From a bacterium (GTDB lineage Bacteria; Patescibacteriota; Microgenomatia; UBA1406; GWC2-37-13): a stretch of 32,539 bases of DNA. The position numbers and the translations under genes are program-made. Of the stretch, positions 15,041 to 23,314 are shown piece by piece (the stretch's first letter is position 1; each line of letters opens with the position of its first letter). The notes beneath the pieces are model-generated. The model worked only from the letters and a program-made list of their open reading frames with translations. It had not been told where the DNA came from and ran no database searches. The stretch covers positions 1-32,539 of the forward strand of contig JAUSJK010000048.1 in the NCBI GenBank assembly GCA_030647255.1. The letters are read 5' to 3'.

Positions 15041-15940
15041 ATGATGAAAAATCAGCAACGTGGTAGCATAGCTCTTATAACTGCGGCATTATTTTATGGT
15101 TTCTATGGGATATTTTCCCGACTCATCGGGAGTTCTTTCGGTAACTTTAATCAAAGTTGGATAAGGAATGTCATTGTAGTAGTTCTTATTACATTCGTTA
15201 TTATTATCAATAAAACAAAGCTGATATCTTTTCAAAAAAAAGATATTAAATGGATTATCCTATGGTTTATGTCCGGGTCTTGGTTGACCGTACTCACTTT
15301 TATAGCTTTTAATAATCTTCCTATTGGAACTACATATCTGGTTCTTTACTCGGCGATGATAATCTCTGGTTTTCTTTCCGGAGCAGTTTTTTTTAAAGAA
15401 AAAATAACTTCGCTTAAAATGGTATCACTCATTTTATCTCTTGTCGGACTCTTCATAATTTATCGATTCAGTATTTCTCCGGATAAATTTTTCTATGTAT
15501 TTCTTGTGTTAATTTCCGGTTTTATGATAGGTATCTGGAATACTATTTCAAAAAAGTTTTCTGATCATTATCATAATAATCAAATTGTTCTCATGGATGC
15601 AGTCAGTACTGTTATAGCTGTATTTATTGGGTCGATTATATTCAAAGAGCGTTTACCTCAGACTATTCTATCGATCAGTTGGGTATGGATAGGTTTATAC
15701 GCGGTCATACAGACGTTGAATGTGGGACTGATCGTATATGGTTTCAAAAATGTCGAAGCACAGATTGGAAGTACTATTCTACCGATTGAGATAATTTTTG
15801 CCACTTTTTTTGCTTACCTTATATTCCACGAAGTTCCGGGACCGCTACTATTCATAGGAGGCGTTTTCATTATTCTCGCAGCCATTATTCCAAGTTTGAG
15901 CTATTTTAGGTTGTTGAAAAAGTCCGAAGCTCACTTCTGA
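15041..15940 (+). CDS. EamA/DMT-family transporter
   Basis: The 299-residue protein has about ten membrane helices in two halves, each an EamA repeat: the first begins GSIALITAALFYGFYGIFSR, the second is VLISGFMIGIWNTISKKFS (about residue 155). The P-I-G-T-T-Y-L-V-L-Y-S-A segment (about 96-107) and the closing I-G-S-T-I-L-P-I-E-I-I-F-A region are characteristic. Family members export amino acids, nucleosides or other metabolites by proton or sodium exchange. The direction and substrate cannot be predicted. A second ATG three bases on is a possible start, but the -10 box 6 nt before 15041 favours the first. Confidence 0.85.
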   Translation: MMKNQQRGSIALITAALFYGFYGIFSRLIGSSFGNFNQSWIRNVIVVVLITFVIIINKTKLISFQKKDIKWIILWFMSGSWLTVLTFIAFNNLPIGTTYLVLYSAMIISGFLSGAVFFKEKITSLKMVSLILSLVGLFIIYRFSISPDKFFYVFLVLISGFMIGIWNTISKKFSDHYHNNQIVLMDAVSTVIAVFIGSIIFKERLPQTILSISWVWIGLYAVIQTLNVGLIVYGFKNVEAQIGSTILPIEIIFATFFAYLIFHEVPGPLLFIGGVFIILAAIIPSLSYFRLLKKSEAHF

Positions 15941-15970
15941 GGTGTGCTTGTGATATCTTATAGTAATTGA

Positions 15971-15976
15971 TATAAT
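15971..15976 (+). promoter_or_regulatory. -10 element of the orphan gene at 15986
   Basis: Consensus TATAAT, 9 nt before ATG 15986. Confidence 0.4.
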
Positions 15977-15985
15977 TCCTTTACT

Positions 15986-16465
15986 ATGAGTAACATACCT
16001 GCTCGTTTAGAAGGCCTATCAACTCCTGAGGCCAGTCTATTTCAAATAAAACAAACTCTTCAAAGAATAAATCCCATGTTAAGGAGGCTCGAAGAAGAGA
16101 TGCGTAAAGGATTTCAATTGGTTGTTGAAGGACCAGAGATCCCAATAGGCGATAAAGCATATATGACTCAGCACCTTGGTTTCTTAAACATAACTGGTGT
16201 TACCTCAGATCAAATGCACATAAATTTTAGATCAATAGCCAAAGGAAATAACTTTGATATTTTATTTGATGGGGAAAGTGTGAGCATACAAGGCAGGGTG
16301 TCTCCGGCAGAAATTGATCAGGCTATGCAAATGCTATTTACCCAAGACGGACAAATAAATCATGACGCAGGATCAATCCATTCAAACTCTACAAGAAATT
16401 TAGCTCATTATACTGAAGATGGAGATCCTAGAAATGAAACAAGTCAACCGAAGCGTATTCCTTAA
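15986..16465 (+). CDS. Hypothetical soluble protein, no recognised family
   Basis: The 159-residue protein has no membrane segment and no signal peptide. The N-terminal half is helical and charged (LRRLEEEMRKGF). The central part reads like a small alpha/beta domain (FDILFDGESVSIQGRVS). The C-terminal 40 residues are polar and probably disordered, ending in basic Q-P-K-R-I-P. No motif or family is recognised. The TATAAT box 9 nt upstream and coherent codon use support a real gene. Its neighbours (transporter, HAD phosphatase) do not suggest a function. Confidence 0.45.
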   Translation: MSNIPARLEGLSTPEASLFQIKQTLQRINPMLRRLEEEMRKGFQLVVEGPEIPIGDKAYMTQHLGFLNITGVTSDQMHINFRSIAKGNNFDILFDGESVSIQGRVSPAEIDQAMQMLFTQDGQINHDAGSIHSNSTRNLAHYTEDGDPRNETSQPKRIP

Positions 16466-16594
16466 ATTAAAAACGATCTTATAGCGGTGTTTCCATAGAT
16501 TTTCCCTATATGGGGGGCTATATAGTCAACGAAGATCTTTCCAACAGAACATTTTGAGATATAATATTATTTCTAGTTTATAATAATAATCTCT
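16466..16594. other. Intergenic region before the HAD gene
   Basis: No gene is seen. CTATAT is repeated on both sides of a GGGGGG run near 16507-16522. TATAAT (16579-16584) and an overlapping TAATAAT lie shortly before ATG 16595 and probably form its promoter. Confidence 0.3.
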
Positions 16595-17590
16595 ATGAAG
16601 AAAACATACACACATATACAGGAAGTCGTATGGAACGACAAAGTGAAGCTCGTAGTCGCAGATGTTGATGAAACAATTGCCGGTGTATATAAACTAGCGA
16701 CTCCGGAGATGATCAAGGAGTTGGAACTGCTACTTCAAGAAGGAAAAGCGATATTTTTTGTCACCGGAGCCGGTCTTCAAAGCGTGAGAGAAAGAATCAC
16801 CGATCTTATCTCTCCAGCTTTCAGAAAACATATCTTAATAGGCAACTGTCACGGAGCTGAACTGTGGGGATTCACGACAGAAGGGATACTCAATGAAAAA
16901 CCTTTTTACAGTGCATATGAAGAAAAATTTAACGAAGATCAAAAAAAACAATGGCGGGAAGTTATGAATCAGCTCATACGAGAGTTTCAATTAAAGATAT
17001 TTCCTACTATGCCTCCGGCCGATTTTCGACTAAAGGTAAAGACCGATGTTTTATCCGTGATGATGGTAGATAGAGGAGTGCAGATTACTTTGGAAGTGGT
17101 CAACGCTCATAATCTTTCGGAAGAACAAGTCAAAGAATTAGAAAAGAAGTTGGGTATTGCGATACCTTTAACCAATGATGTATATGATTTACGCTACGCC
17201 TTAATTGATAGGGCACAACAACTTTTTGATCAATATGGATTACCATTATATTGTAAAACTGGCGGAACTTTTGCACTCGATTTTATAGTCCAAGGTGTAG
17301 ATAAGACGCGCACGGTTAAGTTCGTGACAGATAGTGACAGCATATTAAAAACAATAGGTTTGACGAAAGAAGACATTGTTAACTCTGAACATATTGAAAC
17401 GTGGGGAGATAAATATATGGGGCCAGACTTTTTGATGTCTCTTGCCTTTCCTCCAGAAGTAAGGTCTATCGATTTTCGAGACGAAGATCCTACGAAATTA
17501 TCATCTGAATATAATATTCAGTTGTGGAAAGGCTCAAAAAGATTACACGAGGGGACTCTAGAATATATTCAGTCAAGGAAAAAATTCTGA
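16595..17590 (+). CDS. HAD-superfamily phosphatase-like protein (Cof/PMM-like)
   Basis: The 331-residue protein has HAD motif I as VVADVDETIAG (about residues 19-29, Asp nucleophile plus Asp+2), motif II as F-V-T-G-A (about 54), and a late acidic motif in W-G-D-K-Y-M-G-P-D. A large insert between residues 95 and 225 would form the C2-type cap found in Cof-like and phosphomannomutase-like members. It probably hydrolyses a sugar phosphate or another small phosphate ester. The next two genes, an RmlC-like epimerase and a second HAD protein, fit sugar metabolism, but co-function is inferred only from proximity. Confidence 0.65.
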   Translation: MKKTYTHIQEVVWNDKVKLVVADVDETIAGVYKLATPEMIKELELLLQEGKAIFFVTGAGLQSVRERITDLISPAFRKHILIGNCHGAELWGFTTEGILNEKPFYSAYEEKFNEDQKKQWREVMNQLIREFQLKIFPTMPPADFRLKVKTDVLSVMMVDRGVQITLEVVNAHNLSEEQVKELEKKLGIAIPLTNDVYDLRYALIDRAQQLFDQYGLPLYCKTGGTFALDFIVQGVDKTRTVKFVTDSDSILKTIGLTKEDIVNSEHIETWGDKYMGPDFLMSLAFPPEVRSIDFRDEDPTKLSSEYNIQLWKGSKRLHEGTLEYIQSRKKF

Positions 17591-17598
17591 AATTCTGA

Positions 17599-17604
17599 TA
17601 AGAT
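17599..17604 (+). promoter_or_regulatory. Extended -10 element of the rmlC-like gene
   Basis: TGA-TAAGAT, 8 nt before ATG 17613, inside the 22-nt gap after the HAD gene. Confidence 0.4.
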
Positions 17605-17612
17605 GATTTGAT

Positions 17613-18242
17613 ATGAAAATTCTTGAAGTTAAATCGCTGGTATTTTCGGAAGTAAAGACAATCCGTTTTGGCCGGTTTCCTGATGAGAGAGGTTTTTTTA
17701 CCGAAACGTATAAACATAGTGATTTTCAGAATATGCCCGAACTGAGTTTTGTAAAAGATGTCTCTTTCTTACAAACAAATGTCAGTTATTCAAAAAAAAA
17801 TGTTATACGAGGACTTCATTTCCAGCATAGTCCGATACAAGGTAAATTAATACGCACTATGGTCGGACATATGATCGATCTTTTTCTTGACATACGTATC
17901 GGTTCCCCCCATTTTGGACAGATTGCCGCTCAGGATATGCCGGGAGAACCCGATCAGGATTATGACCAGTGGATATGGATTCCTCCGGGTTTTGCCCATG
18001 GATTTGTCGCTTTAAAAGAAACATACATTGAATATTTTTGTACTGCGGAATATGGTCCTAGAGGGGAGGCGGCCATATCGCCTTTTGCCAGTGATATCAA
18101 CTGGTCAATGTGTGACCCTCAATTAAAAGCAGTTGTAGATTCAATTATCACCGATAATCCTATTATCTCCGATAAAGACAAAAATGCTCATACTCTTTCA
18201 TCCTGGAAAGCCGATCCAGACTCAAATAAATTTACTTTTTAA
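17613..18242 (+). CDS. rfbC: dTDP-4-dehydrorhamnose 3,5-epimerase family protein (RmlC)
   Basis: The 209-residue cupin-fold epimerase has motifs in order: P-D-E-R-G-F-F-T-E-T-Y (about 23-33), Q-T-N-V-S-Y-S-x-x-N-V-I-R-G-L-H-F-Q with the catalytic His69, G-K-L-I-R (about 78), and W-I-P-P-G-F-A-H-G-F (about 126). The acidic partner (D/Y region after EYFCTAEYGPRGE) is also kept. Family members epimerise dTDP-4-keto-6-deoxyglucose at C3 and C5 on the way to dTDP-rhamnose. The other rml genes (rmlA, B, D) are not in the window, so the actual product may be another 6-deoxy sugar used in surface glycans. An extended -10 (TGA-TAAGAT) lies 8 nt before the ATG. Confidence 0.88.
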   Translation: MKILEVKSLVFSEVKTIRFGRFPDERGFFTETYKHSDFQNMPELSFVKDVSFLQTNVSYSKKNVIRGLHFQHSPIQGKLIRTMVGHMIDLFLDIRIGSPHFGQIAAQDMPGEPDQDYDQWIWIPPGFAHGFVALKETYIEYFCTAEYGPRGEAAISPFASDINWSMCDPQLKAVVDSIITDNPIISDKDKNAHTLSSWKADPDSNKFTF

Positions 18243-18247
18243 TTGGA

Positions 18248-18253
18248 TATAAT
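18248..18253 (+). promoter_or_regulatory. -10 element of the HAD-IA gene
   Basis: Consensus TATAAT with exactly 6 nt to ATG 18260. Confidence 0.5.
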
Positions 18254-18259
18254 TTCCTC

Positions 18260-18859
18260 ATGATAAAAGCAGTTTTGTTTGATGTAGATGGAGTTCTTGT
18301 CAATGCCAAAAGATTTAGTCAGATCTTACAAGAAGACTATAATCTCACCACAGAAACAACTCTATCTTTTTTCTCCCAAAAATTTATGCATTGCTTGGTG
18401 GGAAAAGCAGATTTGAAAGAGGAGATAACTCCTTACTTAAAGGAATGGAAGATCGATAAAACTCCGGAGGAGTTCTTGGAGTATTGGTTTACTTCAGAAC
18501 ACAAGATTGATGAAGAGTTGATTCGCTACATTAAAACATTAAAGAGAAATAATATAAAAGTATACGTGGTCACCAATCAAGAAAAATATAGAACAAACTA
18601 TATAGTCAATAAAATGGGTTTCGGTAGTATTTTCGACGACATATTTTCTTCTGCAGATTTAGAGGTGACAAAATCAGAACAGATTTTTTTCCAGAAAGTA
18701 TTACAGAAGTTGGAGAACATAAAGGCAGATGAGATACTTTTATGGGATGACGAAGTAAAACACATTGAGATTGCAAAAAAGAGTGGCTTATTAGCAGAAG
18801 TGTATACGGACTTCGAAAATTTTAAGAAGAAAATGGCATCTTATATCACTTTCGTATAA
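18260..18859 (+). CDS. HAD-superfamily hydrolase, subfamily IA-like
   Basis: The 199-residue protein has HAD motif I as LFDVDGVLVN (residues 6-15), a helical cap (about 18-90), motif II as VVTNQ (about 101), a lysine helix TKSEQIFFQKVLQKL (motif III Lys near 137) and motif IV as L-L-W-D-D-E (about 162). This is the full set for a small-molecule phosphatase of the phosphoglycolate phosphatase or beta-phosphoglucomutase type. It is AT-rich. The neighbouring RmlC gene suggests a sugar-phosphate substrate, but this is inference. The TATAAT box just before the ATG gives it an independent leaderless promoter. Confidence 0.8.
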   Translation: MIKAVLFDVDGVLVNAKRFSQILQEDYNLTTETTLSFFSQKFMHCLVGKADLKEEITPYLKEWKIDKTPEEFLEYWFTSEHKIDEELIRYIKTLKRNNIKVYVVTNQEKYRTNYIVNKMGFGSIFDDIFSSADLEVTKSEQIFFQKVLQKLENIKADEILLWDDEVKHIEIAKKSGLLAEVYTDFENFKKKMASYITFV

Positions 18860-18885
18860 CATTTGTTTTAATTTCCATTTCTTTT

Positions 18886-19021
18886 CGTCATCCTGGTAAG
18901 TCCTTCGGTTTTGCTCAGGACGCATCCCGCCGGGCAGAGCCCTCTGGGCGGCGCCAGGATCGTTGTTAATTGTAGTAACTACGATTCTGGAGTCGTCATT
19001 TCATTCCTCCCCAGAATGACG
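18886..19021. repeat. Palindromic MITE-like element, copy B, with a GC-rich insert
   Basis: The ends are CGTCATCCTGG (18886-18896) and CCAGAATGACG (19011-19021). The body is closely similar to copy C (29223-29327), including an internal GTCCT...AGGAC hairpin and the segment ACTACGATTCTGGAGTCGTC. Copy B alone carries an extra 28 bp (18928-18955), itself palindromic around CAGAG-CC-CTCTG and much more GC-rich than the surroundings. The element lies immediately upstream of the DUF4349 promoter. Confidence 0.7.
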
Positions 19022-19039
19022 AGAAAATTCTGACACAAC

Positions 19040-19069
19040 TTGACATAATGTAATAATATCGGGTATTGT
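19040..19069 (+). promoter_or_regulatory. Promoter of the DUF4349 gene
   Basis: Consensus TTGACA (19040-19045), 18-nt spacer, TATTGT (19064-19069), then exactly 6 nt to GTG 19076. It supports the GTG start. Confidence 0.5.
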
Positions 19070-19075
19070 TATAGT

Positions 19076-19987
19076 GTGTATAGAATTGTTGAGTGGATAA
19101 AGAAAAATAAACTAACTGCGGTTTTGTTGCTCATCATTGTCATATACCTTTTAAGAAATAGTCTTTTTGGACAAGGCTATTATCCTCCTACTTTGATGAA
19201 CGAAGCTCAGTATGGGTCGGACGTTGGTCTGTCTCAAGGCAGTATGAAAGCATCTCTTCCGTTTCAGATTCCAAATCCTATGACTGGAGGCGGAAGTTCT
19301 GCCATACCTGCACAAGATCGTATGGTGGTAAAAAATTCAAATCTTTCGTTAATGGTCAAAGACGTAGTGCCTGTTCAAAAAGCTATCATAGATAAAGCGG
19401 TAGAGTTAGGCGGATATATGGTTTCCTCAAATGTATCTAATCCTCAGGACGCCGCTTCTGCCACAGTTACTGTGCGAGTTCCAGCGAATCGTCTTACGGA
19501 TACACTTGATTATTTTAGAGGATTAGCAGTGAAGGTAGTCTCCGAAAATCTAGATGGAGTCGATATTAATGATCAATATTCCGATAATGAAGCCCAATTA
19601 GCAATACTGAATACCACAAAGAAAAAGTTCGAAGAAATACTCGATAAGGCAACTCAAGTTCAAGATATTCTTACCGTACAAAGAGAGATTGTGAATCTTC
19701 AAACACAGATAGATCAGATAAAAGGTCAACAGAAATACTACGAACAGGATGCCAATTTCACCAAAGTCACTGTCTATCTTTCAACTGATGAATTAGGACT
19801 TCCATATACTCCAAGTGATTCATGGAGACCGGCGGTTGTATTCAAAGAAGCGGTAAGATCGATGCTCCTTAGCATGCAAAAACTGGGAAATTTGGTTATT
19901 TGGCTTATGGTATATGCGGTGATCTGGGTACCTGTAGTTTTGATAATCTTCATATATAAAAAACGAAAATCTTCTTCCTCTCTGTAA
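19076..19987 (+). CDS. DUF4349-family membrane protein
   Basis: The 303-residue protein starts with GTG and a short N-terminal membrane helix (about residues 12-26). A DUF4349 domain follows: R-M-V-V-K-N-S-N-L-S-L-M-V-K-D-V, G-G-Y-M-V-S-S, V-T-V-R-V-P-A-N-R-L, D-I-N-D-Q-Y-S-D-N-E-A-Q-L, then a coiled-coil (VQREIVNLQTQIDQIKGQQ) and V-T-V-Y-L-S. It ends with a C-terminal membrane helix (about 270-295) and a basic tail, so the domain is held outside the cell by both ends. The family's function is unknown; the coiled coil suggests a scaffold or sensing role. It lies just upstream of a two-component system and may be linked with envelope sensing. Confidence 0.82.
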   Translation: MYRIVEWIKKNKLTAVLLLIIVIYLLRNSLFGQGYYPPTLMNEAQYGSDVGLSQGSMKASLPFQIPNPMTGGGSSAIPAQDRMVVKNSNLSLMVKDVVPVQKAIIDKAVELGGYMVSSNVSNPQDAASATVTVRVPANRLTDTLDYFRGLAVKVVSENLDGVDINDQYSDNEAQLAILNTTKKKFEEILDKATQVQDILTVQREIVNLQTQIDQIKGQQKYYEQDANFTKVTVYLSTDELGLPYTPSDSWRPAVVFKEAVRSMLLSMQKLGNLVIWLMVYAVIWVPVVLIIFIYKKRKSSSSL

Positions 19988-19996
19988 ATTGCATTC

Positions 19997-20016
19997 TTTC
20001 AGCTCGTTTTCAGCTC
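19997..20016 (+). promoter_or_regulatory. Predicted response-regulator operator: 9-bp direct repeat with 11-bp period
   Basis: TTTCAGCTC at 19997-20005 is repeated exactly at 20008-20016, one helical turn apart. The repeats cover the position where the -35 of the response-regulator gene would be, and the second ends 8 nt before TATACT (20025-20030). Direct repeats of 11-bp period at the -35 are the classic binding arrangement for OmpR/PhoB-type dimers. This predicts direct autoregulation. Confidence 0.6.
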
Positions 20017-20024
20017 CTTTATAC

Positions 20025-20030
20025 TATACT
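20025..20030 (+). promoter_or_regulatory. -10 element of the response-regulator gene
   Basis: TATACT with exactly 6 nt to ATG 20037; a second TATACT overlaps at 20020-20025. No -35 consensus is present, as expected for an activator-dependent promoter. Confidence 0.5.
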
Positions 20031-20036
20031 ACTGCT

Positions 20037-20711
20037 ATGAGAATCCTCATCGTAGAAGACGAACACCGTATTGCTCAGTCTATCAAACGAGGATTGGAAC
20101 AAGAATCATATGCGGTCGACATCACCTTCGACGGTCAAAAGGGATTCGATTTGGCTTCAACAGAAGATTACGACGTCATTATTCTTGATAGAATGTTGCC
20201 GACCATGGATGGAATACAGGTCTGCCGAAATCTGCGCACACACAATGTCCATATTCCTATACTTCTTCTCACTGCAAAAGACAGACTCACGGATAAAGTT
20301 GAAGGATTGAACGCCGGCGCCGATGATTATCTTACAAAACCATTTGCGTTCGAAGAGCTACTTGCCCGAATACGGGCATTGATCCGTAGACCGAAAGAAC
20401 TATTAAATACAGCTCTCAAAGTTGCAGATCTAGTATTGAATACCACCTCATACGAAGTAAAAAGAGGGAGTGTATCTATTATCCTTTCAAACAAAGAGTT
20501 CGCTCTTCTTGAATATCTGATGCGAAATATTGGCAAGATTGTGACAAAAGAAAAAATTATTACTCACGTATGGGATTATGATGCCGATGTCCTTCCCAAT
20601 ACGGTTGAAGCTTATATAGGCTACTTGCGTAATAAGGTAGATAGACCATTCAAAAAATCTCCTCTCATACACACTGTCCGAGGATTTGGTTATAAAATTG
20701 CAGAAAAATAG
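20037..20711 (+). CDS. OmpR/PhoB-family response regulator
   Basis: The 224-residue protein has a receiver domain (residues 1-115) with the acidic pocket V-E-D-E (about 7-9), phospho-acceptor Asp51 in I-I-L-D-R-M-L-P, Thr in L-L-T-A-K-D (about 79), and Lys in D-Y-L-T-K-P-F. A C-terminal winged helix (about 130-224) follows with the usual L-S-N-K-E-F-A-L-L-E-Y-L and the closing T-V-R-G-F-G-Y-K. It would bind DNA as a dimer on direct repeats. ATG 20037 is chosen because the protein begins MRILIVEDE and a TATACT box lies 6 nt upstream; the longer frame from 19989 lacks support. The histidine-kinase gene begins 3 nt after its stop codon. Confidence 0.93.
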   Translation: MRILIVEDEHRIAQSIKRGLEQESYAVDITFDGQKGFDLASTEDYDVIILDRMLPTMDGIQVCRNLRTHNVHIPILLLTAKDRLTDKVEGLNAGADDYLTKPFAFEELLARIRALIRRPKELLNTALKVADLVLNTTSYEVKRGSVSIILSNKEFALLEYLMRNIGKIVTKEKIITHVWDYDADVLPNTVEAYIGYLRNKVDRPFKKSPLIHTVRGFGYKIAEK

Positions 20712-20714
20712 TAA

Positions 20715-21707
20715 ATGTTCGAATCAACCAGAATAAAACTTACGTTATGGTACGTACTTATTATCACGGTAGTCTGCGTACTTTTTGGTATTGTTATTTT
20801 TTCACTTCTTCATCGGGAACTCATGATCAGTGAAAATAGATTGGGTCCTCGTATGGAACGCTTGCGATATTTGAATCCCGATATGTTTCTCCAGTATCAA
20901 GCTCAAAGAGAAGCAACGGAACAGTCTATCAAGCTTAATCTTCTCTATATGAATATGCTCATTCTTGGCGTCTCAACAATCGCAGGCTATTTTTTGGCAG
21001 GTAAGACGCTCAAACCTATACAGCATATGGTAGAGGAACAAAACAGATTTATTGCGGATGCTTCACATGAGTTAAAAACTCCAATTACTGCATTGCGAAC
21101 AGGAACAGAGGTGACGTTGCGGGATAAAAAGCTTACTCTTATCGAGGCAAAAAAAATTCTTGAAGGAAATCTTGAAGAGATAAAAAATCTACAGTCTCTT
21201 TCAGATAACCTTTTAAGTTTGGCAAAGTTCGACAGAAACCATTCTGACATACAGACGTCGGAAGTATCGCTTAAACAAACTCTCATAGAAGCAAAAAAAA
21301 TTGTCGATCCGCTTGCATCTCGTAAACAGATCGATATAAAAATTTCAGGAAGTGATACAAAAGTTAAAGGCTATAAAGAAGAATTGGTAAAGCTATTTGT
21401 AATATTTTTGGATAACGCTATCAAATACAGTTCTGAACACACAGTAATTCAGGCGGTAATCTCTTCTTTAGGTAGGATGGGAGTAGTGAAAATCGTGGAT
21501 CATGGAATAGGTATAAATCCCGAAGATATCTCTCATATTTTCGATAGGTTTTATAGGACAGACAAATCTCGGCGTAAAGATAAGACACCCGGGTATGGAC
21601 TGGGTTTATCAATAGCTAAGAAAATTGTCGAACTTCATCATAGCGGTATCAAAGTAGAAAGCACCGTGGGAAAAGGAACGACATTTGTGGTCTCACTTCC
21701 GAAGTAA
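20715..21707 (+). CDS. Sensor histidine kinase
   Basis: The 330-residue protein has two membrane helices (about residues 9-31 and 76-95) framing a very short external loop of about 45 residues, so it is a small-loop sensor. There is no clear HAMP. The H box is FIADASHELKTP with His118, followed by the N box D-N-A-I-K-Y-S, G1 D-H-G-I-G-I, F box F-D-R-F-Y-R and G2 G-Y-G-L-G-L-S. It should autophosphorylate and act on the adjacent regulator. No Shine-Dalgarno sequence precedes the ATG; coupling with the regulator gene, three bases upstream, is likely. The signal is unknown; a membrane-intrinsic signal is suggested by the tiny outer loop. Confidence 0.92.
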   Translation: MFESTRIKLTLWYVLIITVVCVLFGIVIFSLLHRELMISENRLGPRMERLRYLNPDMFLQYQAQREATEQSIKLNLLYMNMLILGVSTIAGYFLAGKTLKPIQHMVEEQNRFIADASHELKTPITALRTGTEVTLRDKKLTLIEAKKILEGNLEEIKNLQSLSDNLLSLAKFDRNHSDIQTSEVSLKQTLIEAKKIVDPLASRKQIDIKISGSDTKVKGYKEELVKLFVIFLDNAIKYSSEHTVIQAVISSLGRMGVVKIVDHGIGINPEDISHIFDRFYRTDKSRRKDKTPGYGLGLSIAKKIVELHHSGIKVESTVGKGTTFVVSLPK

Positions 21708-21716
21708 TTCTAGGAC

Positions 21717-21735
21717 TTTTTCAGTGTTTTCTCAG
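21717..21735 (+). promoter_or_regulatory. Second predicted response-regulator operator with 11-bp period
   Basis: TTTTTCAG (21717-21724) and TTTCTCAG (21728-21735) match at 7 of 8 positions and are exactly 11 bp apart. The second half-site ends about 10 nt before TATATT (21746-21751), the same geometry as at 19997-20030. It predicts that the hydrolase gene belongs to the regulon of the adjacent two-component system. Confidence 0.45.
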
Positions 21736-21756
21736 GTTGCTAACATATATTTTAAT

Positions 21757-22809
21757 ATGACCATAAAAAAACTATTTTTTTTTATACTATTACTTCTTCT
21801 TGCTGTTCCATTTTTTATGCAAAAAATAAATAACAATATGCCAACAGATAATCCTTATGAAATGGAAAATGAAGGAGGTTTAGAGGAGAAAACTCCTCAT
21901 GAATTATCTATTGAAACACTGAGAGAAGGAACATATCCGGGCAGTGATATAACGGTAGAAGAAACATTACCTCAAGGAAGTAATTATTACCGATATATTG
22001 CTTCCTACCAGTCAGAAGGAAATAAAATATTTGCTCTTCTCACTGTTCCAATAGGGGAAAAACCTGCAACGGGCTGGCCTGTGATCATATTCAATCACGG
22101 ATACATTCCTCCGGCAGAGTATAGAACAACAGAAAAATATATTGCCTATACGGATGCATTTTCACGCAGCGGATATATTGTCTTTAAATCTGATTATAGA
22201 GGTCATGGAAGTTCCGAAGGACAACCTGCGGGAGGATATGGTTCAAATGCCTATACTATTGATGTCCTCAATGGTATGTCATCGATTAAGAAATATAAAG
22301 ATGCCGATATCAATAAAATCGGCATGTGGGGACATTCTATGGGAGGTTTTATTACACTGCGGAGCATGGTAGTAAATAAAGATATAAAAGCGGGAGTGAT
22401 TTGGGGAGGCGTGGTTGCATCATATCCTGATTTGATAAATAGATGGAGAAGGAATACAACGCGTCCTACAATATCGGGAGGATCGAGGGGATGGAGACAA
22501 ACTCTCATTGATCAATATAAATCGCCTGAAGAGAATCCCAAATTTTGGAATTCTATATCGGCAAATTCATACCTCAAAGATATCTCAGGCTCACTACAAC
22601 TGCATCACGGTACAGCAGACACTTCAGCCCCCGTTGAATTTTCAGAAATACTGGAAAAACAAATGAAAGATGCAGGTCACACAGTTGAACTGTATACTTA
22701 TATGGGCGATGATCATAATATTTCAACCAACTTATATACTGCGTTACAGAGGTCAGTCGATTTTTTTGATATACACGTCAATGGAATACAGCCAAAAATA
22801 GGCAGTTAA
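21757..22809 (+). CDS. Secreted alpha/beta-hydrolase (prolyl-oligopeptidase-like peptidase or esterase)
   Basis: The 350-residue protein has an N-terminal signal/anchor segment (about residues 4-21) and then an alpha/beta-hydrolase domain. F-N-H-G (about 112-115) forms the oxyanion region, GHSMGG holds the nucleophile Ser194, H-H-G-T-A-D the likely acid, and GDDHN the catalytic His. A wide range of peptidase and esterase reactions is possible. The longer in-frame start at 21685 overlaps the kinase gene and would place the signal peptide internally, so ATG 21757 is preferred. Its promoter carries a direct repeat like that of the regulator gene. The cupredoxin gene follows after a short gap. 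Confidence 0.8.
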   Translation: MTIKKLFFFILLLLLAVPFFMQKINNNMPTDNPYEMENEGGLEEKTPHELSIETLREGTYPGSDITVEETLPQGSNYYRYIASYQSEGNKIFALLTVPIGEKPATGWPVIIFNHGYIPPAEYRTTEKYIAYTDAFSRSGYIVFKSDYRGHGSSEGQPAGGYGSNAYTIDVLNGMSSIKKYKDADINKIGMWGHSMGGFITLRSMVVNKDIKAGVIWGGVVASYPDLINRWRRNTTRPTISGGSRGWRQTLIDQYKSPEENPKFWNSISANSYLKDISGSLQLHHGTADTSAPVEFSEILEKQMKDAGHTVELYTYMGDDHNISTNLYTALQRSVDFFDIHVNGIQPKIGS

Positions 22810-22824
22810 TATATTTTTATATTG

Positions 22825-22857
22825 AAGGAGGTGAATTAAGAGTATGAACGAAGGAGG
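22825..22857 (+). promoter_or_regulatory. Tandem Shine-Dalgarno sequences of the cupredoxin gene
   Basis: AAGGAGGTGA (22825-22834) lies 12 nt before ATG 22844, and GGAGG (22853-22857) lies 7 nt before ATG 22865. The two ATGs are in frame, so two starts seven codons apart are possible; spacing favours 22865. Confidence 0.55.
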
Positions 22858-22864
22858 CAATAAA

Positions 22865-23314
22865 ATGAACCCGATGATGCTTGTAGGTGTGATTGTAATG
22901 ATAGCCATTATAGGAGGAGTTGTGATGATTTCAGGCCAGAAAGGTTCTCCAGAATCTGCTACTCCTACCCCGGAAGTGATGGAAGCGAAACCGAGCGGTA
23001 CAATGAAAGCAGTGACGGATACTCCTGGGACTGATATGGAAGTAAAGACAATTAATATAGACGCAGGAAGTTTTTACTACGATCCTAAAGTGATAAAAGT
23101 AAAAAAAGGTGAAAAAGTAAAGATTGTTATGACGAGTAAAGACATGATGCATGACTTCAATATTGATGAATTAGGAGTCAAATTACCTATAACCAAAGCA
23201 GGCGAAACTTCGGAAGTAGAGTTTACTGCCGATACAATAGGTACATTCGAGTACTACTGTTCCATAGGACAACATAGGAAAAATGGACAAGTGGGAACAA
23301 TTATTGTAGAGTAA
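22865..23314 (+). CDS. Membrane-anchored cupredoxin (plastocyanin-like)
   Basis: The protein (149 residues from ATG 22865, 156 from ATG 22844) has an N-terminal membrane anchor (about residues 4-22), a Thr/Pro/Glu linker and a beta-barrel cupredoxin domain. Copper ligands are His in MMHDF, Cys in Y-Y-C-S-I-G-Q-H and the following His. The usual fourth ligand, Met in the G-M-V-G turn, is Gln here (GQVG), as in stellacyanin-type centres. It would be a low-potential electron-transfer or copper-handling protein on the outer face of the membrane. No respiratory oxidase gene lies nearby. The strong Shine-Dalgarno sequences stand out in this window and suggest high expression. Confidence 0.8.
   Translation: MNPMMLVGVIVMIAIIGGVVMISGQKGSPESATPTPEVMEAKPSGTMKAVTDTPGTDMEVKTINIDAGSFYYDPKVIKVKKGEKVKIVMTSKDMMHDFNIDELGVKLPITKAGETSEVEFTADTIGTFEYYCSIGQHRKNGQVGTIIVE

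Follow-up and report, generated by a model that had tools for sequence, protein, structure and literature searches.

Our analyses have identified a perfect direct repeat ahead of a response regulator gene which, judging from its layout and conservation, is very probably the binding site of that regulator, an activator of the PhoB/CiaR/PhoP type that would control its own regulator-kinase operon together with a regulon of export and envelope genes. Within the window (the whole 32,539-nucleotide stretch of DNA that was analysed), TTTCAGCTC is found twice on the forward strand, at positions 19997-20005 and 20008-20016, and the sequence runs CATTC TTTCAGCTC GT TTTCAGCTC CTT TATACTATACTACTGCT ATG, with the ATG at 20037. 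The original prediction of a perfect repeat with an 11-bp period before this start codon is thus borne out by the window sequence. Together with the alignment of orthologs, the sequence delimits two half-sites of 7 bp each (TTTCAGC at 19997..20003 and at 20008..20014, both on the + strand) separated by a 4-bp spacer, with TTTCAGCTC running on to 20005 and 20016, respectively. The search motif that had been suggested for this site (TTTYWCAG-N3-TTTYWCAG) fails to match it, and the correct forms are TYTCAG-N5-TYTCAG or TTTCAGC-N4-TTTCAGC.

No other 9-mer of the window recurs exactly at an 11-bp spacing (Markov copies of the window give 0.1 such repeats on average), and the full 20-bp repeat pattern, allowing up to 3 mismatches, matches the window only at the site itself (0.06 expected). 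In the 1.22-Mb genome of the source organism, exact TTTCAG-N5-TTTCAG occurs a single time. A regulon search by the box alone with one mismatch was dropped, because the hexamer pair, with one mismatch allowed and no -10 element required, gave 15 matches genome-wide vs 15 for the reversed control, i.e. no enrichment; the box is therefore useful for genome searches only together with its promoter context.

The gene that follows (20037..20711, + strand) encodes a 224 aa protein with a Response_reg domain (PF00072, E=2.3e-31) and a Trans_reg_C domain (PF00486, E=1.3e-24), in which the phospho-acceptor Asp51 as well as Thr79 and Lys101 are all present and the recognition helix reads NTVEAYIGYLRNK; its assignment as an OmpR/PhoB-type regulator, as predicted, is hence upheld. 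A sensor histidine kinase gene with HisKA and HATPase_c domains (20715..21707, + strand) lies in the same operon and encodes the partner of the regulator, and a kinase homologue occupies the corresponding position in 108 of the compared loci. Further downstream are the genes for a 350 aa alpha/beta hydrolase (Peptidase_S9/Hydrolase_4-like; 21757..22809, + strand) with an N-terminal hydrophobic segment and, after it, a cupredoxin (22844-23314). The DUF4349 gene upstream of the regulator (19076-19987) was rejected as a conserved partner and is a chance neighbour, since no DUF4349 match was found in any of the 109 regulator loci.

Conservation of the repeat in related genomes, on which the original prediction depended, proved to be extensive. 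The 109 ortholog loci, drawn from two collections, yield 102 distinct upstream regions (window included), and of the named organisms in the genome collection the nearest relatives belong to the Patescibacteria, viz. Gottesman-, Roizman-, Woese- and Berkelbacteria, WWE3, and Saccharibacteria. Counting a box wherever at least 8 of the 10 scored positions agree, T(T/C)TCAG-N5-T(T/C)TCAG is present in register in 95 of the 102 upstream regions, vs 2.9% of Markov shuffles; it is absent at this threshold in the other 7, one of which (L106) falls just under it. When 94 promoters are aligned on the box, positions 3-6 of both half-sites are nearly invariant (T 98-100%, C 93-95%, A 100%, and G 97-98%), and a C is preferred directly after the first half-site. 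The box is also specific for this regulator: of 20 paralogous regulators of the OmpR type from related genomes (43-52% identical), none has it at the corresponding place. A strict pattern consisting of the box, 8-11 nt and TATAMT gave 44 matches in 91 related genomes vs 0 for the reversed pattern, and in 287 genomes sampled from the whole phylum it gave 22 vs 2, with matches in 18 of the 287; these matches lie mostly before the same regulator.

Two variations on this arrangement were seen among the relatives. Tandem triple half-sites with an 11-bp period are present upstream of two regulators (L049 and L052; e.g. TTTCAGTCGCTTCTCAGTTGTTTCTCAG in L052) and of one adaptor gene (L091), as though dimers were able to bind in more than one register. 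In a close relative (genome G011; loci L017 and L047) the regulator gene has no box in front of it, but a perfect one precedes both the hydrolase gene and the gene for a small membrane protein (G011:C5:77885); autoregulation may thus have been lost there and the control of targets kept.

The prediction that a TATACT -10 element follows the repeat stands, with a correction as to which copy is meant. Two overlapping TATACT copies are present, at 20020-20025 and 20025-20030 (+ strand). The distance from the end of the box to the -10 element is 8-12 nt in the 94 related promoters, and because of this spacing the copy at 20025-20030, which lies 11 nt past the hexamer pair TTTCAG-N5-TTTCAG, with 6 nt left to the ATG, and is the one matched by the strict pattern, is the likeliest -10 element; the copy at 20020-20025, at a distance of 6, lies outside the range and was rejected. 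The -10 hexamer is TATAAT in 64 and TATACT in 14 of these promoters (together 78/94), and its end is 6-9 nt from the start codon in 87 of them. A TTGACA-like hexamer (at least 5/6 matching positions) is found in 0/94 promoters, in agreement with the predicted position of the repeat at the place of the -35 element, which the box evidently replaces. In its 11-bp period, its replacement of the -35 element and its distance of about 10 nt from the -10 element, the site has the features of a PhoB-like direct-repeat site.

Transcription starting 6-7 nt past 20025-20030 would place the first nucleotide of the regulator mRNA on or beside the ATG, and this mRNA therefore looks leaderless, with a putative start site at the start codon; Shine-Dalgarno-like sequences occur in only 3 of the 94 promoters. 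The idea that this layout is peculiar to the regulator promoter was rejected; it reflects a general tendency of the genome, since several other genes of the window likewise have a -10-like hexamer immediately ahead of the start codon and lack a Shine-Dalgarno sequence. In the region 15041-19076 many gene starts have such a hexamer 5-10 nt ahead and no Shine-Dalgarno sequence, which suggests that leaderless mRNAs are common in the source organism.

The box recurs before other genes of the window's own genome. A second box, TTTCAGTGTTTTCTCAG (21719..21735, + strand), is located ahead of the hydrolase gene, a predicted target, and is followed after 10 nt by a -10-like TATATT (21746..21751, + strand) which ends 5 nt before the ATG at 21757. 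A loose pattern of box and -10 element has 6 matches in this genome, 4 of which lie before the regulator, the hydrolase, an adaptor operon or a small secreted protein. The adaptor operon (contig C45) encodes an HlyD-type adaptor, a MacB-like ATPase and an FtsX-like permease, with a DUF5666-like gene nearby, and the small secreted protein (contig C25) belongs to the same family as boxed small secreted proteins of relatives; both families had been found first in relatives and were later recovered in the own genome. The boxed C25 gene is split over two overlapping frames of 65 and 119 aa (L266 793-1303; G000:C25), a frameshift or an assembly error.

Strict-pattern matches in the own 1.22 Mb number two. 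A strict match lies before a XerC-like recombinase gene (G000:C80:2491), which is doubtful as a target, no clear box having been found before its orthologs in 29 relatives; a further match of the loose pattern, before an 89-aa ORF (C14:48890), is probably due to chance. A few bases before the start codon of this recombinase gene (G000:C80:2491-3426 in the own genome), a different, conserved motif, (A/G)(C/T)GTCGTTTAATAT, is present in most relatives (L235-L264); it may be a promoter, an operator or a site connected with recombination.

Among the relatives, genes for HlyD/MacA-like adaptors (Pfam domains HlyD_D23 and HlyD_3) are boxed in 29 of 41 cases at the regulator loci, mostly directly after the kinase gene, and genes for the small secreted protein family in 9 of 19, as compared with 2.2% of random windows. 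Other boxed genes encode an HtrA-like serine protease (L141) and four small membrane proteins that resemble the SHOCT type (L136, L145, L226, and L227), all assigned by eye, two DUF5666 proteins (L066 by Pfam, L142 by similarity) and two ABC ATPases (L209 and L213). Of 28 hydrolase orthologs in relatives, 5 are boxed; L089 and L037 add to these cases. Because the hydrolase is boxed in so few relatives and several target boxes (those of adaptor genes) are accompanied by weak -10 elements, membership of the target set appears to turn over. The recurrence of the box before the same gene families, in relatives and in the own genome, most likely marks part of the gene set that the regulator controls, and the prediction that the half-site would offer a way to define the regulon is to this extent supported.

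Several known systems resemble the one described here. The pho box of E. coli, which stands for the PhoB class of activators, is an 11-bp-period direct repeat of the half-site CTGTCAT in place of the -35 element, about 10-11 nt from the -10 element of an autoregulated operon. The present system has the same period, the same place and nearly the same distance, and is predicted to be autoregulated; however, its half-site is different, no phosphate-uptake genes are seen among its targets, and the regulator scores 191.5 bits vs the NCBIfam PhoB cut-off of 296.2. The best NCBIfam matches of the regulator are the heavy-metal family TIGR01387 (CztR/SilR/CopR; 237.3 bits) and the RppA family NF041734 (236.3 bits), and an HlyD/CusB-like adaptor is among the targets here, but both scores are under the curated cut-offs (279.2 and 250 bits, respectively), so that membership of neither family is indicated.

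In geometry the closest match is the CiaR box of streptococci (TTTAAG-N5-TTTAAG, at 10 nt from the -10 element; PMC3091779), which shares the 11-bp period, the hexamer length, the invariant T..AG positions and a near-equal distance to TATAAT, and TTAAG half-sites occur as natural variants in some orthologs of the present regulator. The serine protease gene htrA is under strong control by CiaR (PMC3091779), a parallel to the boxed HtrA-like protease of the relative L141. In contrast, the fourth position of the half-site is A in CiaR boxes and C here, the organisms are different, and in the present system HlyD-MacB exporters and small secreted proteins are among the boxed targets, with promoters of leaderless appearance. 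The two regulators do not qualify as orthologs, the recognition helix being NTVEAYIGYLRNK here vs VVEVYVSKVRKKL in CiaR (PMC3091779) and the half-site TTTCAG vs TTTAAG.

How the half-site may be read is illustrated by PhoP of M. tuberculosis, which by sequence ranks among the nearest proteins of solved structure and whose box, TCACAGC-N4-TCACAGC, is read by Asn212, Val213, Glu215, Ser216, Tyr217, and Tyr220 (PMC4832192). Both sites are 7-4-7 direct repeats with a common CAGC core. The residues aligned with these in the window regulator are Asn, Thr, Glu, Ala, Tyr, and Tyr, i.e. 4 of the 6 base-reading residues are identical (Asn212, Glu215, Tyr217, and Tyr220); the kept Asn and Glu face the CAG core common to both half-sites, whereas Val213 and Ser216, which are replaced, touch or come near the two differing bases (C5 and A6). 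The N-T-V/I-E of the recognition helix is invariant in every one of the 90 orthologs whose helix pattern could be recognised. The systems differ in the 5' side of the half-site (TCA there, TTT here) and in their regulons, and PhoP's own autoregulatory site lies downstream of +1 (PMC3413638).

From these features we infer a mechanism of activation rather than repression. A phosphorylated regulator dimer, on whose phosphorylation binding is presumed to depend, would sit head-to-tail on the two TTTCAGC half-sites in place of a -35 contact and recruit RNA polymerase to the -10 element at 20025-20030, leading to autoregulated, probably leaderless transcription of the regulator-kinase operon. The box at 21719 would drive the adjacent hydrolase gene, and boxes elsewhere in the genome the operon of adaptor, MacB-type ATPase and FtsX-type permease as well as the small secreted protein gene. 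The prediction of an autoregulatory OmpR/PhoB-type activator agrees with the layout and conservation of the site, and its binding and activation steps are put forward here as a proposal. In view of the boxed hydrolase, HlyD/MacB/FtsX operon and small secreted protein, the likeliest role of the system is the regulation of envelope or export stress, widely shared across Patescibacteria, with such stress as its presumed signal.

Alternatively, the regulator could bind this box to repress its own gene by blocking RNA polymerase in the -35/-10 region, since the box and the footprint of the polymerase overlap upstream of the -10 element in all promoters. We regard this as unlikely: the near-consensus -10 elements and the lack of any -35-like hexamer in the 94 promoters amount to an activator-dependent design, and the box-to-minus-10 distances of 8-12 nt (11 here) span the 10 nt of activated CiaR promoters (PMC3091779). 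Still less probable is the binding of a different global regulator, or a role of the box as a lineage-specific core promoter element; its presence before several genes would fit either, but it is overwhelmingly tied to the regulator ortholog and its neighbours, is missing from all 20 of the paralog promoters, has only two strict matches in the genome, and is matched in its constancy by a near-invariant recognition helix. A chance repeat in an AT-rich intergenic region, which a single short repeat and the unenriched one-mismatch motif might by themselves suggest, has almost no likelihood left and is already refuted by the comparative sequence data, viz. the in-register conservation across many lineages of the phylum and the enrichment of 44 vs 0. 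Activation through the box by the regulator encoded downstream is thus the reading that we retain.

Patescibacteria are mostly uncultured, have tiny genomes and are thought to live on other cells. No response-regulator binding motif or regulon for them is described in the open-access literature searched. On balance, the distribution of the box favours one ancestral two-component system that acts through leaderless promoters and a box of almost constant sequence, TYTCAG-N5-TYTCAG, to control export and envelope-stress genes across much of the group (Roizman-, Woese-, Gottesman- and Saccharibacteria, Berkelbacteria, WWE3, and some Parcubacteria); if true, this would be the first regulon defined by a DNA motif that is common to this mostly uncultured phylum. 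The type of site is already known from PhoB and CiaR, and what goes beyond the routine is the phylum-wide breadth and a regulon that, through its conserved motif and gene targets, can be read from genomes alone and examined by a laboratory reporter test without culturing the source organism. The exporters, small secreted proteins, HtrA-like protease and hydrolase point to one joint response in these small-genome bacteria.
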